NCBI RefSeq assembly: GCF_016901015.1
Contig: NZ_JAFEUP010000004.1
Location: 1-64,000 of the forward strand
Reading direction: 5' to 3'
Length of the DNA: 64,000 nt
Origin: Zestomonas insulae
GTDB lineage: Bacteria > Pseudomonadota > Gammaproteobacteria > Pseudomonadales > Pseudomonadaceae
Of the stretch, positions 1,973-30,799 are shown in pieces. Numbering within the stretch: the stretch's first letter is position 1; every line of letters starts with the position of its first letter. The position numbers were made by a program, and so were the translations under genes. The notes beneath the pieces are model-generated. The model worked only from the letters and a program-made list of their open reading frames with translations. It did not search any database and was not told the origin of the DNA.

Positions 1973-2641
1973 ATGCGACTGCTGCTGGTAGAGGACCATG
2001 TGCCGCTGGCCGACGAGCTGCTGGCCGGCCTGACCCGCCAAGGCTATGCGGTGGACTGGTTGGCGGACGGCCGAGATGCGGCGCACCAAGGTGCGATTGA
2101 ACCCTATGACCTGATCATCCTCGACCTGGGCTTGCCGGGAAAACCCGGATTGGAAGTGCTCAGCGAGTGGCGCAGCGGCGGCTTGGCGACGCCCGTGTTG
2201 ATCCTCACCGCGCGTGGCTCCTGGGCCGAGCGCATCGAGGGATTGAAGGCTGGGGCCGACGACTACCTGACCAAACCCTTTCATCCCGAAGAGCTGCAGC
2301 TGCGCATCCAGGCGCTGCTGCGGCGTGCGCACGGTGTCGCCAATCAGCCACAGCTGGAGGCGGCGGGCCTGCAACTCGACGAGAGCCGTCAGAGCGTGGC
2401 GCTGGACGGCGCGGAGATCACGTTGACCGCGGCGGAGTTCCGCTTGCTGCGCTACTTCATGCTGCACGCCGGGCAAATACTCTCCAAGTCGCACCTGGCG
2501 GAACACCTGTACGACGGCGAGACCGAGCGCGACTCCAATGTCATCGAGGTGCACGTCAATCATCTGCGCCGCAAACTCGGGCGCGACGTGATCGAAACGC
2601 GGCGGGGGCAGGGTTATCGCTTTGCCGGGGCCGCGCAGTGA
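1973..2641 (+). CDS. bqsR: OmpR-family response regulator, BqsR/CarR-like
   Basis: The 222-residue protein has an N-terminal receiver domain and a C-terminal winged helix. The receiver shows the acidic pair ED at 7-8, the phospho-acceptor D51 in [10 protein letters not shown], and the conserved Lys in YLTKPF. The DNA-binding half carries the OmpR signature around [14 protein letters not shown] and ends with TRRGQGYRF. It begins directly after the PepSY gene stop and overlaps the kinase gene by four bases. Assignment as BqsR/CarR (Fe(II)- or Ca-responsive in P. aeruginosa) rests on operon structure and position near nuo, tlpQ and the PA2653-type permease. A QseB/PmrA-type paralogue is the alternative. 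Confidence 0.65.
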
Positions 2642-3975
2642 GATCGATCCAGCGGCGCTTGAGCCTGGGTCTGTTCGGTGTGTTACTGGTGGTCGGGCTT
2701 GGCTTGGCGCAGACCAGCGTCTGGCTGGTGGATCTCGGCCTGCGCCGCTACCTGGAAAACACCCTGCGCGATGATGCGGAAACTCTGTTGGCCGCCATGG
2801 TCCGCGGCCCGCAGGGTATCCAGCTGGACGAGCGGCGGGTGACCGCCGGCTATCAGCGACCGTTCTCCGGTCAGTATTTTCGCGTGGATTTCGCTGACGA
2901 GCCGTGGCGCTCGCGCTCGCTGTGGGACCGCACGCTGGAGCGTCCTGACTCCGTCGGGCTGCAAGCAGGGCTTGGCGCCGGACCGAATCAGCAGCAACTG
3001 CTGGTGTATCGCGCCGATTACAAACGTTATGGCCAGCCACTGTCGATTACCGTGGCGCTCGACTACAGCCCGGTGCTGGAAGGGCTGCGGCGCTTCCAGT
3101 GGATTGCCGCGGCACTCGGCGGTGCGGCATTGCTGTTGATCCTGTTGCTGCAGCGCTGGATCGTCCGGCGCGCCCTGCAGCCGCTGGAGGAGACGCGGCA
3201 GCAGATTGCGCAACTCCAGCAGGGGCAGCGCAGCGACCTGGACAGTGCCGTGCCGGCAGAGCTCGAGCCGCTGGTCCGGCAGATCAACCACCTGCTGCTG
3301 CAGACCGAAGACACCCTCAAGCGCTCACGCAACGCCCTGGGCAACCTGGGCCATGCGCTGAAAACCCCGCTGGCGGTGTTGCTGAGTCTGGCCAACCGTG
3401 AAGAGCTGCGGGCCCACCCCGAATTGCAGGACAGCCTGTTGCAGCAATTGCAGTTGATCGAGCAGCGCCTGGCGCGCGAGCTCGGTCGTGCCAAGCTGGC
3501 CGGCGAGGTGCTGCCGGGCGCGCACTTCGATTGCGCAGAAGAGTTGCCGGCACTGTTCGAGACCCTGGCCATGATTCACCGTCGAGGGCTCGATCTGGAC
3601 TGGCAGGCAGCGCCCGGGCTGCGTTTGCCCAAGGATCGCGAGGACGTCCTAGAGTTGCTGGGCAACCTGCTGGACAACGCCTGCAAATGGGCGAGTCAGC
3701 GCGTGCGCCTGACTATCGAGGCGACTGGCGAGGGCTTCCGTCTATTGGTCGATGATGACGGTGCGGGGATTGAGCAGGAGCGCCGCGAGGGCGTGCTCGG
3801 ACGCGGTGTACGGCTGGACGAGCAGGTCGCTGGCCATGGCCTCGGGCTCGGCATCGTGCGTGATATCGTCGACAGCTGGGAGGGCTGTCTGCAGCTGCAG
3901 GACAGCCCCCTGGGCGGTTTGCGCGTGAACATCGAGCTGCCGCAACGGCCAGCGCGTCAGCTCGGCAAGCCGTGA
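2638..3975 (+). CDS. bqsS: Sensor histidine kinase, BqsS/CarS-like
   Basis: Translation starts at GTG 2638 inside the regulator stop (GTGA overlap) and gives 445 residues. Transmembrane helix 1 is at about 9-31, a periplasmic domain of about 120 residues follows, helix 2 is at about 153-172, then HAMP. The phospho-acceptor H239 lies in LGHALKTPL. The ATPase domain has the N box ([12 protein letters not shown]), G1 (DDDGAGI) and G2 (GHGLGLGIV). It should phosphorylate the adjacent regulator. The published BqsS Fe(II) motif RExxE is not seen; the closest string is RDDAE at residues 44-48, just outside helix 1. The cognate signal is therefore uncertain even though context favours BqsS. Confidence 0.65.
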
Positions 3976-3978
3976 CGC

Positions 3979-4575
3979 TTACATGCCGTTGGCGAACGCC
4001 GGGTTGGCCATGTCGATCGACTCGCGGACCGGCTTCAGTGCCTGTCCGTACTTGACCAGGATCTCCAGGTCATAGTCGATGCGCGCGCGCAGGCGGCTGT
4101 CGTCTTCGCTGCTCGCCTCGGCGTCGTTGAGCACCTTTTCCGCATGACGGACGATCAGGTGCTCAGGGATGTAGCACAGCCGGCAGTTCTTGTAGCCCGA
4201 GGCGCGCAGCTCACTGATCGGATAGGCGCCACCGACCCCGGAGGACACGCCGACCAGCAGGGCCGGCTTGTGCGCCAGCTCGGCCTTGCTCGCATAGATG
4301 AAGAAGTTCTTCACTGCCGGGCTGGCCATACCGTGCCATTCCGGCGCGATGATGATCACCGCGTCGGCGGCCTGCAGCACTTCGGCGTACTGGCTCCACG
4401 GGCCGCTGTGTTCGGCTGGCCAGAGGGGCAGGGGATTCTGGCCGAGGTCGATGACCTGACTCAGTTCGTCGCGGGTGTGGCCGAGCTCGATCAGGCGCTG
4501 ACGCAGGAAACGGGCGATCTTCCCCGACTGGCTGGCGGCGCGGCTGGAGCCGGCGACGATGGCGAAATTCAACAT
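3979..4575 (-). CDS. NADPH-dependent FMN reductase family protein
   Basis: A 198-residue flavodoxin-fold protein. The N-terminus MLNFAIVAGSSR is the phosphate-binding loop of the FMN-reductase family. PEWHGMASPAVKNF is the second family motif (the usual PEYN/PEWHG segment before K-F), and GVSSGVGGAYP lies in the third flavin loop. Such enzymes reduce FMN, quinones or azo compounds with NAD(P)H in the cytosol. The substrate cannot be predicted. It converges on the sensor kinase gene (3 bp between stops) and is transcribed on its own, with the chemoreceptor gene upstream on the same strand 167 bp away. Confidence 0.8.
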   Translation of the reverse strand: MLNFAIVAGSSRAASQSGKIARFLRQRLIELGHTRDELSQVIDLGQNPLPLWPAEHSGPWSQYAEVLQAADAVIIIAPEWHGMASPAVKNFFIYASKAELAHKPALLVGVSSGVGGAYPISELRASGYKNCRLCYIPEHLIVRHAEKVLNDAEASSEDDSRLRARIDYDLEILVKYGQALKPVRESIDMANPAFANGM

Positions 4576-4707
4576 GCTTGAGGTTCCTTCACAAAGAGGT
4601 GCGCAGGCTAACCGTGCGCGGAAGCGTCGACAAAGGTTGAAGCGTCAGGCCGGTGGTCGAATGACGCCAGCACTGTTGAGAGGGAGTCGGCGACGCCGGC
4701 TCCGGCG

Positions 4708-4730
4708 AACCGGGCGGCAGCCGCCCGGTT
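4708..4730 (-). terminator. Hairpin after the chemoreceptor gene
   Basis: A perfect GC-rich inverted repeat (arms AACCGGGCGGC and GCCGCCCGGTT) lies 12 bp beyond the chemoreceptor stop. There is no T-run on either side, so it may stabilise the mRNA end or act as a weak terminator. Confidence 0.4.
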
Positions 4731-4742
4731 GCAGGATGGCGA

Positions 4743-6896
4743 CTATACGCGGAACTGGTCCATCAGGCCTTGCTGGTGGTTGGCCAGGTTGTTCAGCGAC
4801 TGGCTGACGCGCGCCGATTCATCGGCCTGACCGGCCAGCGATTCGGTGACGTCACGGATGGTCGCCACGTTGCGATTGATCTCTTCCGCCACCGCGCTCT
4901 GTTCTTCCGCGGCACTGGCGATCTGCAGGTTCATGTCGGAAATCACGGTGACCGCGTCGCCGATGCGCCGCAACGCGGCGACCGCCTGTTCGACCTGGGT
5001 CACGCCGCTCTGCGCCTGCTCGTGGCTGTTGTGCATGGCGCTGACCACGTCACGAGTGCCGCCTTGCAGGCCTTCGATGACCTGGCGGATTTCCTCCACC
5101 GAGTCCTGGGTGCGCTTGGCCAGGTTGCGCACTTCATCGGCGACCACCGCGAAGCCGCGACCGGCCTCACCGGCGCGCGCAGCCTCGATCGCTGCGTTGA
5201 GCGCCAGCAGGTTGGTCTGCTCGGCAATGCCGCGAATCACCTCGAGCACCGAGCCGATCTGCTCGCTGCTGCTCGCCAGGCCTTCGACCTGCGCCATGGC
5301 GGTGGTCATGTCGCGGGCCAGGCTGTCGATGGCCGCGGTGGTCTTGTCGATGACGCTGAGGCCCTCGCGAGTGGCCTGGTCGGCGCCCTTGGCGGCCTGC
5401 GCGGCTTGCGCAGCGCTGCGCGCCACGTCGTGGGCGGTGGCGCTCATCTCGTTGGAGGCGGTGGCGACCTGGTCGACTTCACGGAACTGCTGCTGCATCC
5501 CGGCGCTGGTCTGGTTGGCGATGACTGCAGACTGATCGGCGGTGCCGCGCGCATCCTGCACCGAGCGTTTTACGTCGGCGATGATCGGCTGCAGCTTGTC
5601 GAGGAAGCGGTTGAACCAGCCGGCTAACTCACCAAGCTCGTCCTGTTTGTTGTAGTCGAGGCGCCGGGTCAGATCGCCTTCGCCGCTAGCGATGTTCTTC
5701 AGCATGCTGGCCACGCCGAGAATCGGTCGGGTCACGCCGCGGGCGGTCAGCCACATCAGCAGCAGACCGGCGAGCACCGCGGCGAGGCCGACGGCGAGCG
5801 CCACCAGGCTGTCGCTGAGGCGCCGGCTATCCAGTTGCGACTCGAGCTGCTGGGCCGGGCCGAGCAGCTGTTGGCGCGGCACTTCGAGCAGCACGCTCCA
5901 CGGCTTGGCATCGGGAATCGGTTGCAGCGGCTCGAGCACACGCAGCAGGGCGTCGTGGTGCAGCACCTTGGCCTGGCCCTGGGCGGCGAGCTGCAGCAGC
6001 TCCGCACTCTGTTCGCCAAAGGCGTTGCTGGTGGATTTGCCGAGCAGCTTGGCATCGCGGCTGTTGCCGGCCAGCAGGCCCTTGGCGCTGAGGATGCTGA
6101 CGTGCCCCTCGCCGCCATAGAGTTCCTGGTTCGCCTGCACGCTGAGCTGCTGCAGGCTGGCGAGGCTGATGTCGACGCCCATGACGCCGATGACCTTGCC
6201 GTTCAATTCGAGCGGGAAGGCGATGCTGGTCATCAGGGTCGGCGTGTCGTTGACGTTGTCGATGTAGGGGTCGATCAGGCAGGGTTTGCCGGTGTCGCGC
6301 GGGCAGGTGTACCAGCTGTTGTAGGGCAGGCCGTTGGTGACGGGGCTGGTATCGCCGAGCAGTTCCTCGCTCATCGATTCCGACTTGAGCTGGCCGGGGG
6401 TGGTTTGCGCCCAGTACAGCGAGAAGCGCCCCTTGTCGTTGCTGCCGATGGCCTCCTGATCGACGAACAGCTCATCCTTGCCGTCCAGCGCGTTGGGTTC
6501 GAACACCACGTACAGACCGAGCAGCGACGGGTTGGCGTCCAGTGCGGTGCGCACCTGGCTGGTCAGGTCTTCGCGCAGGTCGTAGGCATCCAGGAAGCGT
6601 TTCTCCGCCTGTTCGCGGAGGAACAGGATCTGCCGCGAGAAGCCCTTGCCGTACTGGTAGGCGTCCATGAAGTAGCGCTGGATGCGCAGCGACTGGGTTT
6701 CCCCGCGCGCCTGCATGCGCGATACCGCCGCTTCTTCGAGCATCTGCGAACTGGCGCTTTTCACCAGCGCGGCGCTGCGTTGCGACTGGTACAGCGAGGC
6801 CCCCACCAGCAGGGTCACGATGGCCAGCAGGCAAAGGCCGGCCAGCAGGCTGATCTTCCATTGAATGGATAGCCGGTTGGAAAACATGCGGAACAC
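4743..6896 (-). CDS. tlpQ: Methyl-accepting chemotaxis protein, TlpQ/McpU-like (dCACHE)
   Basis: A 717-residue transducer. TM1 is at about 14-36, followed by a periplasmic domain of over 300 residues of double-CACHE type ([19 protein letters not shown], later [13 protein letters not shown]). TM2 is near 370-392, then HAMP and a cytoplasmic coiled coil. The hairpin tip that binds CheW/CheA is seen around [19 protein letters not shown] with [17 protein letters not shown]. Length and neighbours match P. aeruginosa TlpQ (PA2654; histamine and polyamine taxis), beside the PA2653-type permease. A FliA-type promoter lies just upstream, so it should be expressed with the flagellar class IV genes. The TlpQ ligand range is inferred from family and context, not from residues checked here. 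Confidence 0.7.
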
Positions 6897-28257: not shown

Positions 28258-28750
28258 GCCGTGGCTCCTTAGACAGAGGCGGCGGAAACAAATTAGTTGA
28301 TGTCGCGGGTCTAATGATTAGCCAGCGATCTAATTCGCTAATTCTATGCGGGTCTGCGTCGCCAAGTAAATTTTTCCTTATAAAAAATTAACTTAGCGGT
28401 CGAATTGGATGCGCGAAGGCAGGCAGGGCGCGCGTTGCAGCGGACCTATTCTTTGGTCGCATGGTTTGGCGGCAATTAGCGATTTTATTTAAATGAGAGG
28501 TATTAGCATTTGCTGGTCGTGATGTTTTCTAGCACTCAACAGCTAATAACAATCCGCTTAATCCAATTGAAAAGACTATCTCCAATCGATATTTGCCGCG
28601 AATCTCCCTGAACTAGCGTACTAACAGTGTCTTCGGGCGCCGTCGCTCTGTTTCCCGGTCGTACTCAGGCGCCATGTGGGGGGCGGAGTGCCTTGACCGT
28701 AGGTCAGCCGCTTCGACCTCGTCCAGAACAAGAAGATGAGGAACGCAGCA
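28258..28750. other. Divergent intergenic region, nuoA / pectin-acetylesterase-like gene
   Basis: A 493-bp AT-enriched gap with no convincing ORF. It contains the probable nuo promoter (separate entry) and, close to the plus-strand gene, a 13-bp palindrome TGACC-GTA-GGTCA at 28694-28706. The middle part (about 28480-28620) is AT-rich and could hold the plus-strand promoter or further regulator sites, but no clear match was found. Confidence 0.5.
28341..28369 (-). promoter_or_regulatory. Candidate sigma-70 promoter of the nuo operon
   Basis: On the minus strand, -35 TTACTT (28369-28364), 17-bp spacer, -10 TAGAAT (28346-28341). The predicted start is about 75-80 bp before the nuoA ATG. Confidence 0.5.
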
Positions 28751-30154
28751 ATGCCCAAGCGCTTACTACGTTTTCCCCACGCGCTCGCCTGCGCGATACT
28801 GCCCATGGTGAGTTCCGTCGCCCATGCGGAATTGGGCGACTACAGCTTCTGGCAATCGACAATCAACCTGGTTGCCCCGCCGCGAGCCGACAACAAGGTC
28901 ACGTCGTCCCAGCGTCTGGGGATTTATCCGCTCCTTGCCAATCCCGCCGGTTTCGACAGCGGCTTCAAGCCGGCCAGGTACTATGCGTGGCAAACGGTGA
29001 AGCTGGCGCCGCAGACCGGCGCCGTATGCGGCAACGGTTCGCCTTACAAGTTCTTCGTCAATCGCGTGCCGAATACCAGCAACACCATCATCTATCTGGA
29101 GGGCGGTGGTGCCTGCTGGGACAGTGCGAGCTGTAGCGGCCAGGCAGGCATCCGCGGTGCGCGCAATGCCGATGGCATTCCCGATGACTACATGTCACTG
29201 CTGAATCCTGGTGCCAGCCTGGTCAGTCCGCTGGTGGTGCGCCTGCACCCCTGGACGCGGGTGAAAACCCAGAACTGGAACATGGTCTATGTACCGTACT
29301 GCACGGGTGACATCTACTCGGGCGACAAGGTTGCCATCTACTCGGCGGCCGACCCGCAGCAAGCGCCGCTGGTCTGGCAGCACAACGGCTTGCGCAACAT
29401 GCGTGCGGTGGTCAGTTGGCTGAAGGACAACCTGCAGCGCCCGGCGCAACTGCTGACCACCGGCTGCAGCGCCGGTGGTGCCGGTAGCCTGACCAACTAT
29501 GCGTCGATACGGCCAGACATGGCGCCGACCCGAGGCTTCCTTTTCGATGACTCCGGCCCGGTCTTTTCGGCACCCGCAGGAAGCAATCCGTTGCAGTATC
29601 CGTCGTTGCCGCTGCAGACCTTCATCCGCAGCGCCTGGGGGCTGGACGCTGCAAATGGCCCGCTGGCGTATATGCAGAGCCGACTTCCCGGTTTCAATCG
29701 CGCGGACCTCGGTTCCCTGTATCCCGCGCTATCTAGTACCTGGAGTGCGGACCGCATGGGGCAGGCGCACTTCTGGAAGGATCTGAATTACTCGTCCTAC
29801 TCCTATGAGCGCTTCTATGCGGACATCATCAACGCACCGGATCAAGCTACCAAGGAGGCGTTGATTCATGCGCGGTGGGATGTGGACTCTGGGCGTCTGC
29901 GTGCCAGCTTGGCTGGGCTGAACAATTTCGGCGGCTACTTCCCGCAGTTTCGTGCGGTCAACGAGAGCCATTGCACGAGCATCATCGAGTTCGCCAATGC
30001 GGATATTCAGGAGCAGGGGCTAGAGCTCGATCATTTTGTCAGCAGCATCCTCGATGGTAGCGGCAAGGTGCTGGATGCTTCCGAGTCCAGCGATGCGGCG
30101 GATCGGCAGAAGCCCTTCAACCTGCTCTACTACGTGCTCGACCAGCTGCTGTAG
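28751..30154 (+). CDS. Exported pectin acetylesterase/Notum-family hydrolase
   Basis: A 467-residue protein with signal peptide (MPKRLLRFPH then a hydrophobic core, cleavage after AHA at about 26). The alpha/beta-hydrolase domain has the PAE/Notum nucleophile motif GCSAGG (Ser240), an oxyanion-side segment IIYLEGGGACW, and a probable catalytic His407 in NESHCTS. Six mature cysteines (93, 122, 128, 184, 239, 408) suggest disulfides and an extracytoplasmic location. The ATG at 28751 has a GAGGA site eight bases upstream; an in-frame ATG at 28736 is less likely. Substrate is unknown; family members deacylate carbohydrates or proteins. It converges with a putative membrane-anchored foldase-like gene (9 bp between stops). 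Confidence 0.75.
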   Translation: MPKRLLRFPHALACAILPMVSSVAHAELGDYSFWQSTINLVAPPRADNKVTSSQRLGIYPLLANPAGFDSGFKPARYYAWQTVKLAPQTGAVCGNGSPYKFFVNRVPNTSNTIIYLEGGGACWDSASCSGQAGIRGARNADGIPDDYMSLLNPGASLVSPLVVRLHPWTRVKTQNWNMVYVPYCTGDIYSGDKVAIYSAADPQQAPLVWQHNGLRNMRAVVSWLKDNLQRPAQLLTTGCSAGGAGSLTNYASIRPDMAPTRGFLFDDSGPVFSAPAGSNPLQYPSLPLQTFIRSAWGLDAANGPLAYMQSRLPGFNRADLGSLYPALSSTWSADRMGQAHFWKDLNYSSYSYERFYADIINAPDQATKEALIHARWDVDSGRLRASLAGLNNFGGYFPQFRAVNESHCTSIIEFANADIQEQGLELDHFVSSILDGSGKVLDASESSDAADRQKPFNLLYYVLDQLL

Positions 30155-30163
30155 CGCTGGCGG

Positions 30164-30799
30164 CTACTGATAGGCCCGCTCGCGGGCCTCCTGAAGTTGC
30201 TGGCGCAGGTACTCATCGCGCGGCAGGCCGCCCGGGACGCTGTCCATTGCCATGACCTCGTCGACGATGCGCTTCTCTTCGAGCTTGTACTGGGAGAATT
30301 GCGCGTCTTGCTGTTCGATCGTGCGCTGTTCACGCGCAGCGCTGAGTGCCTTGTAGCGGGCTACTAGCACCGAGGCGCGAGCTTTCTGCTCTTGTTCATC
30401 GCCGCTGGTCGCGCGAATCAGGGCGACTTGCAGCAACAAGGCTTCGCTGAGGGCGAGTTCACCACGCTGCTCATAATCATCGATTTGCTGGGCCAGTGCC
30501 TGTGCTTCGCTGTTGCGCTGCGCAGGCGAGAGATCGGCGGTGCGGGAAAAGAAGTTGCGATAAGTGTTATGAAAGGCCAGTCGGCGCTCTTCCTCCTTCA
30601 CGGCCGGTGTGTCCAGCAAATGCTGAAGATCTGCGGTATGCGTGGGGGTGGGCGGTGGTGGCGATGTGGCGAGGTCGCGGGCAGGGGCGGGCGCCGCGTC
30701 GGTGCGGCCCTGCGGTGTGTGGGAGAGGCTGAGCAGCGTCAGTCCAGCGGCGCTGATGCCCAGTGTCACACCTAGAAGCCAAGTGTTTGCGCGTGGCAT
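30164..30799 (-). CDS. Membrane-anchored helical protein, lipase-foldase/PlcR-like architecture
   Basis: A 211-residue protein: one N-terminal membrane helix (residues about 7-26), a Pro/Ala-rich linker (about 29-53), then an all-helical charged domain (about 57-211) rich in Glu, Gln, Arg and Ala. This layout matches lipase-specific foldases (Lif) and the phospholipase C accessory protein PlcR, and the length is near that of PlcR. No enzyme motif is visible. ATG 30799 has a GGGGAG ribosome site; a longer frame upstream lacks support. The neighbour is an exported hydrolase in convergent orientation. The foldase role is an inference from architecture and context. Confidence 0.55.
   Translation of the reverse strand: MPRANTWLLGVTLGISAAGLTLLSLSHTPQGRTDAAPAPARDLATSPPPPTPTHTADLQHLLDTPAVKEEERRLAFHNTYRNFFSRTADLSPAQRNSEAQALAQQIDDYEQRGELALSEALLLQVALIRATSGDEQEQKARASVLVARYKALSAAREQRTIEQQDAQFSQYKLEEKRIVDEVMAMDSVPGGLPRDEYLRQQLQEARERAYQ

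Follow-up and report, generated by a model that had tools for sequence, protein, structure and literature searches.

The window (the whole stretch of 64,000 nucleotides of Zestomonas insulae DNA analysed here) contains a gene for a PAE/Notum-like hydrolase with a predicted export signal and, converging on it, a second gene whose small, membrane-anchored product is related to PlcR. Sequence comparison makes it quite probable that this partner is a dedicated, membrane-anchored folding or secretion chaperone of the PlcR superfamily, acting in the periplasm on a hydrolase bound for type II secretion. The reading rests on the tight co-occurrence of the two genes, which accompany each other in many gamma-proteobacteria, the homology of the partner to PlcR, one case of a decayed partner where the hydrolase is missing, and the conserved cysteines of a hydrolase without Tat motif. 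It is well supported by the comparative evidence and PlcR homology, and not by homology to the lipase foldases (Lif).

The hydrolase

The hydrolase gene (28751..30154, plus strand) encodes a PAE/Notum-like alpha/beta hydrolase of 467 aa with predicted Sec-type export. Its start is placed at the ATG at 28751; an alternative in-frame ATG at 28736 would add five residues. The signal peptide (residues 1-26; 28751..28828, plus strand), read by eye from the sequence, ends in ...SSVAHA, followed by ELGDY, and carries no twin-arginine motif. A strict Tat motif is likewise found in none of the 66 hydrolase loci described below, the single relaxed match (L077) preceding the likely start. PF03283 matches the protein with an E-value of 2.6e-19 and 70 bits (cut-off 26.6), and Notum is its best PDB match by sequence as well as the best fold match of its model (Foldseek E 2.9e-10, probability 1.00; mean pLDDT of the model 78). 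Profile and fold are shared with Notum and the plant pectin acetylesterases, but the window hydrolase belongs to a bacterial subfamily and its Pfam match is limited to residues 81-254. No characterised member of this subfamily was found in a literature survey of titles and abstract openings.

The mature hydrolase possesses six cysteines (93, 122, 128, 184, 239 and 408), each present in all 38 rows of alignment A10, which combines the window hydrolase with 37 of the 66 homologous loci; the two Burkholderia relatives of the hydrolase have other residues at positions 239 and 408. The sequence-only reading had described a signal-peptide-bearing PAE/Notum-type hydrolase with six mature cysteines, and the open reading frame, the PF03283 match and the A10 rows agree with it. 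Because no strict Tat motif is present and the mature cysteines are conserved, the natural inference is that the hydrolase folds in the periplasm, the compartment in which the helical domain of the partner is expected to lie.

The active site of the PAE/Notum family is a Ser-Asp-His arrangement (PMC5465549). By analogy with the triad of Notum, Ser240 in the motif GCSAGG (29468..29470, plus strand) is the probable nucleophile and His407 (29969..29971, plus strand) the probable catalytic histidine, while Asp344 (29780..29782, plus strand), which follows strand 335-339 in the model, is a candidate for the aspartate. All three occur in 38 of 38 rows, as do the competing aspartates D267, D334 and D379.

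The partner gene

The partner gene (30164..30799, minus strand) encodes a PlcR-related protein of 211 aa, the proposed chaperone; according to the open reading frame positions the two stop codons are separated by 9 bp (30155..30163). The protein begins with an N-terminal membrane anchor (residues 7-24; 30728..30781, minus strand), a hydrophobic stretch that forms a helix in the AlphaFold2 model, followed by a Pro/Ala-rich linker (residues 25-54; 30638..30727, minus strand) that is unstructured in the model. The remainder is an all-helical domain (residues 55-211; 30167..30637, minus strand), modelled with helices from 55 to 210 and core pLDDT values mostly of 95-98, in which conservation rises toward the C-terminus of the alignments. 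Reading frames and model thus bear out the earlier description of a convergent 211-residue anchor-linker-helix protein with 9 bp between the stops. Outside the pair, nuoA lies beside the hydrolase and aceA beside the partner (names judged from sequence).

That the partner is a real gene is indicated by its homologues in 63 of 66 hydrolase loci, by a third-position excess in three comparisons, and by dN/dS ratios of ~0.09-0.32 in six close pairs of relatives. The Fisher tests that accompany these comparisons ignore kinship and are not used as proof.

Pairing across loci

With the hydrolase as the only query, a scan of one locus collection that kept only loci holding one of two peptide patterns left 66 loci. 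These bear the names Pseudomonas, Atopomonas, Marinobacter, Alcanivorax, Lysobacter, Tahibacter, Steroidobacter, Povalibacter, Aliikangiella, Reinekea, Hahella and others; close relatives are among them, and they do not represent independent events. A profile of the partner, derived from seven genomes, was then searched in the 4-kb flanks, where the first pass detected a homologue in 63 of the 66 loci. The two genes are convergent in 49 of these 63 (gaps of -13 to 1031 bp) and in tandem, with the partner downstream, in the other 14; a third order, with the partner upstream on the same strand, occurs in two Burkholderia replicons. Median pairwise identity is 35% for the partner versus 69% for the hydrolase, i.e. 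the partner is the more divergent protein. The distances of the two proteins correlate over the 63 loci (mirror-tree r 0.90), which is not used as proof since species descent alone could give such a correlation.

The three loci without a nearby partner (Pseudomonas indica, Pseudomonas sp. PIC25 and Pleionea) belong to genomes that all encode it elsewhere; the search for unlinked partners was positive in five of five genomes, two of these being positive controls. In Pleionea the partner lies ~16 kb from the hydrolase, apparently on the same contig. In P. indica and PIC25 it is found near aceA, beyond a PhoX gene, with the hydrolase still at nuoA, as if the pair had been split by rearrangement and both halves kept. 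The co-occurrence across genomes that the sequence-only reading had proposed as a check is found: 63 of the 66 loci have both genes close together, and in the other three the partner is encoded elsewhere in the genome.

In locus L202 the unlinked partner gene (4319-4948 (+)) follows a PhoX-type gene with a twin-arginine-like start (2175-4217 (+)), and L203 is similar; the PhoX-type gene matches PF05787 (scanned for L202 only). This neighbour in P. indica and PIC25 may be an accident of rearrangement or a second client.

Whole-genome samples

The genus sample of 149 genomes, own genome included, contains the hydrolase in seven and the partner in eight; the seven coincide, with the genes adjacent and convergent. 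The eighth genome (G063) holds a decayed partner in two frames with stop codons (L023 6627-7123) between aceA and nuoA, and the hydrolase gives no match there, neither at the partner locus nor genome-wide. The broken partner is probably the record of a loss of the pair.

These data bear on the simplest alternative, that two unrelated genes are neighbours through shared inheritance of the locus and have no joint function. The position of the pair near nuoA and aceA in many Pseudomonas loci would fit it, but the pair is also found in other surroundings and comes in three gene orders, three genomes have retained both genes although these lie apart, and the partner is broken in G063, where the hydrolase is absent; we consider this alternative highly improbable.

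Among 293 genomes of the order sample the partner occurs in nine, all of which have the hydrolase next door. Hydrolase matches are found in 29, of which 15 reach E <= 1e-60, and the 14 genomes in which all PAE matches are weaker yielded no partner; the partner is thus linked to this particular hydrolase subfamily and not to PAE domains in general. Six genomes with a strong hydrolase match lack a detected partner: G345, three with a longer and two with a shorter anchored neighbour. No partner was found on the available side of the G345 hydrolase, whose reading frame begins at the contig start, and this case counts against the pairing. That frame (L184 2-2308 (+)) is open over 769 aa, its hydrolase domain being followed by a long extension at the C-terminus. 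The class sample gave matches in six of 274 genomes, strong only in the own genome and in G678, where the hydrolase lies beside the partner; E-values in the other four range from 1e-4 to 1e-3.

The longer neighbours are anchored proteins of 312-317 aa beside distant PAE hydrolases (G182, G247 and G275). They display no homology to the partner (0.6% probability in the profile comparison) and resemble Lif to a middling degree (63%, E 7e-5 over 179 columns), which argues against a single family that would include every PAE partner. The shorter neighbours (156 aa; G297 and G418), likewise beside more distant PAE hydrolases, have no clear family match, one of the two having been scanned. All five genomes with such non-homologous neighbours were left out of the counts. 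Genes for the 312-317-aa anchored proteins lie convergent to the distant hydrolases in L185 (1637-2581 (+)), L186 (4088-5038 (-)) and L189 (5455-6390 (-)); the L185 hydrolase has 43% identity, and the L189 hydrolase is split by a transposase-like reading frame.

Relationship to PlcR

TIGR03398, the NCBI model of PlcR, matches the window partner with an E-value of 2.9e-5 and 24.7 bits, below the equivalog cut-off of 99.1. At E-values up to 0.1 it matches 49 of the 55 members of alignment A4, window protein included, the best with 1.3e-10; A4 combines the window protein with 54 of the 63 linked partners and omits seven near-duplicates as well as L086, whose N-terminus is unread, and L068, which lacks a start close to the anchor. 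Above its cut-off the model matches no protein in 194 order genomes and none in 149 genus genomes. Profile-profile comparison (hhalign) relates the partner to phospholipase-linked PlcR of Burkholderia (97.1%, E 5.6e-11, 138 columns) and to PAE-linked Burkholderia partners (97.9%, E 5.9e-13). Both Burkholderia profiles consist of two sequences each, the PlcR yardstick being the two phospholipase-linked sequences and not P. aeruginosa PlcR, and the E-values are those of single comparisons and are loose (Lif against the partner gives 3e-4 despite 40% over 17 columns). Judged from these profiles, the partner is distantly related to PlcR, its helical domain being homologous at superfamily level. 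Of the Lif/PlcR-like character proposed for it earlier, the PlcR half stands on TIGR03398 and hhalign and the Lif half finds no support, no A4 member matching PF03280 at E-values up to 0.1.

The Burkholderia cases examined, B. arboris and B. stagnalis, carry PAE-linked partners (L171 3120-3824 (+) and L172 3125-3823 (+)) that score 196 and 219 bits with TIGR03398. Proteins encoded next to PAE hydrolases thus exceed the model's cut-off, and for them the name 'phospholipase C accessory protein PlcR' may be misleading. The 3.5-Mb replicon of B. arboris possesses two PlcR-family genes over the cut-off, one preceding the PAE hydrolase and the other following a phosphocholine-specific phospholipase C (904 bits with TIGR03396), so that one family stands beside two unrelated enzymes. 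The B. stagnalis phospholipase was judged by eye from its reading frame, with profile confirmation for B. arboris only. An unrooted tree of the window partner, 28 of the 63 linked partners and four Burkholderia sequences separates the latter from the 29 gamma-proteobacterial rows (100/97), a split in which long branches may mislead. The presence of PAE-linked members on both sides suggests that the PAE pairing is old, two recruitments being the alternative.

With PlcR the window partner has in common the homology of the helical domain and a place beside an exported hydrolase. It differs in its neighbours, a PAE hydrolase and aceA instead of a phosphocholine-specific phospholipase C, in a client without Tat motif where that of PlcR is a Tat-exported phospholipase, and in its score under the equivalog cut-off. 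PlcR furthermore has a second in-phase start that yields the short PlcR2, whereas the linker of the window gene contains no ATG or GTG. At least one such codon is found in the linker of 33 of the 62 partner genes scanned (window included; two of 64 skipped), i.e. an internal start is not conserved.

The comparison raises the possibility that the partner is a stoichiometric subunit exported together with the hydrolase, the two forming a heterodimer in the manner of PlcH and PlcR2. PlcHR2 has been reported as a secreted folded heterodimer that exits through Tat and Xcp (PMC3601568), and the partner is homologous to PlcR. The missing start codon for a soluble form in the window linker, such codons being limited to 33 of the 62 scanned genes, favours a tethered foldase or escort, and the client without Tat motif likewise speaks against export as a folded heterodimer, so that we hold a co-secreted subunit to be unlikely.

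Lif, CpaB and other families

Lipase foldases consist of an anchor, an unstructured linker and a chaperoning domain, and are not co-secreted (PMC13381987). The window pair has the same layout of anchor, unstructured linker and helical periplasmic domain beside an exported hydrolase, and proline makes up 8 of the 32 partner residues 25-56, near the 27% printed for P. aeruginosa LipH (PMC13381987). The helical domain, however, comprises ~157 aa, compared with residues 63-340 of LipH (PMC13381987). PF03280 (Lif) matches none of the 55 A4 members at E-values up to 0.1, and hhalign of the partner against 23 Lif sequences yields 40% probability (E 3e-4) over 17 columns. Membership of the partner in Lif is not supported, neither profile nor profile-profile comparison giving a significant relation. 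One Burkholderia PAE-linked partner has a sub-threshold PF03280 match (E 0.046, 14.1 bits, cut-off 25.7).

The protease CpaA is served by CpaB, a type II secretion chaperone that is membrane-anchored and specific to its client (PMC4713064). CpaB is as such an anchored helper of a non-lipase client, as proposed for the window partner; its client is a protease. NF033512 (CpaB) is absent from the 17 families matched by the 55 A4 members at E-values up to 0.1. Foldseek found no PDB match of the partner model at E <= 0.001, and VIA-align gave a best Z of 7.9 (ribosomal protein S20, 14-3-3 chains) within a range of common helical arrangements; this outcome is neutral as to kinship with Lif, PlcR or CpaB. 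Of two PDB sequence searches with the partner, one returned no match and the other two chance-level matches. A mycobacterial VapB antitoxin model matches 27 of the 55 A4 members weakly (best E 1.4e-4), perhaps through a common helical pattern.

The protease inhibitor BamI gives a weak match in one of the 55 A4 members (E 0.0071). This match would fit a protein that inhibits the hydrolase, or gives immunity to it, by holding it inactive in the periplasm of the producer, and linkage and co-decay of the genes would look alike under such a function. Kinship with PlcR points instead to a secretion helper, and no known inhibitor family was matched with confidence by the 55 members; an inhibitor appears slightly less probable still than a co-secreted subunit.

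Earlier reports

Harding et al. 2016 sought anchored reading frames beside known type II effectors (PMC4713064). Their Table 1 names BURPS668_1220, an anchored hypothetical protein of B. pseudomallei 62 bp from a pectinacetylesterase, as one of a putative type II chaperone pair, and lists another B. pseudomallei anchored hypothetical protein beside phospholipase C (PMC4713064). BURPS668_1220 resembles the window partner in being an anchored protein beside a pectinacetylesterase; it occupies a single table row, is in the same operon by the authors' criterion, and comes in that row with no mention of PlcR homology, no test and no distribution (PMC4713064). It was compared by its published description, with the B. 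arboris and B. stagnalis loci standing in. A 2026 review places pectinacetylesterase family proteins among the Burkholderia type II substrates (PMC13391677). The open-licence literature, covered mostly as titles and abstract openings, yielded no other report of the pair or of a link between PAE hydrolases and PlcR. The earlier claim that a PAE-family pair was undescribed hence has to give way for the Burkholderia pair of Harding et al. 2016 (PMC4713064), and holds, within the literature covered, for the link to PlcR. The family-level pairing with unrelated clients appears to be new, though partly foreshadowed in print.

Proposed function

Under the chaperone reading the hydrolase would cross the inner membrane via Sec and form its disulfides in the periplasm. 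The helical domain of the partner, on its flexible Pro/Ala tether, would capture it there and fold it or hold it secretion-competent, before handing it over to the type II secretion system. These steps, from Sec use and disulfides through direct binding, folding and release to type II export, are all inferred for the hydrolase. A GspD secretin over the cut-off is present in the own genome and in all 16 other pair genomes searched (17/17), which counts little toward type II export because secretins are common in such bacteria. Counting against a chaperone are the convergent arrangement, in which the genes form no operon, the score far below the PlcR cut-off (24.7 vs 99.1), and the genomes that depart from the pairing, i.e. 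G345 without partner and the five with non-homologous anchored neighbours.

If the partner is a chaperone, PlcR-type proteins serve at least two unrelated hydrolase classes, and the Notum-like esterase, having a PlcR-type partner of its own, adds a client class. Such bacterial esterases would then be predicted to fold poorly when expressed alone, the 'phospholipase C accessory protein PlcR' would be recast as a more general helper whose PAE-linked members public names may mislabel, and the three gene orders would offer a natural set of pairs for asking how a chaperone changes its client. More tentatively, and with a confidence that falls a little short of even, PlcR-type proteins may form a third class of steric, anchored type II foldases beside those of lipases and proteases, with exchangeable unrelated clients (Notum-like esterases, phospholipases C, perhaps secretory lipases of PF03583, and others), and may mainly be helpers of the PAE family.

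Genome G191 (L190) encodes a secretory lipase (3230-5098 (-); PF03583, E 6.6e-54) followed by an anchored protein of 205 aa (2555-3169 (-)) with a partial PlcR match (E 2.6e-5); the lipase is possibly a third type of client of PlcR-like proteins.
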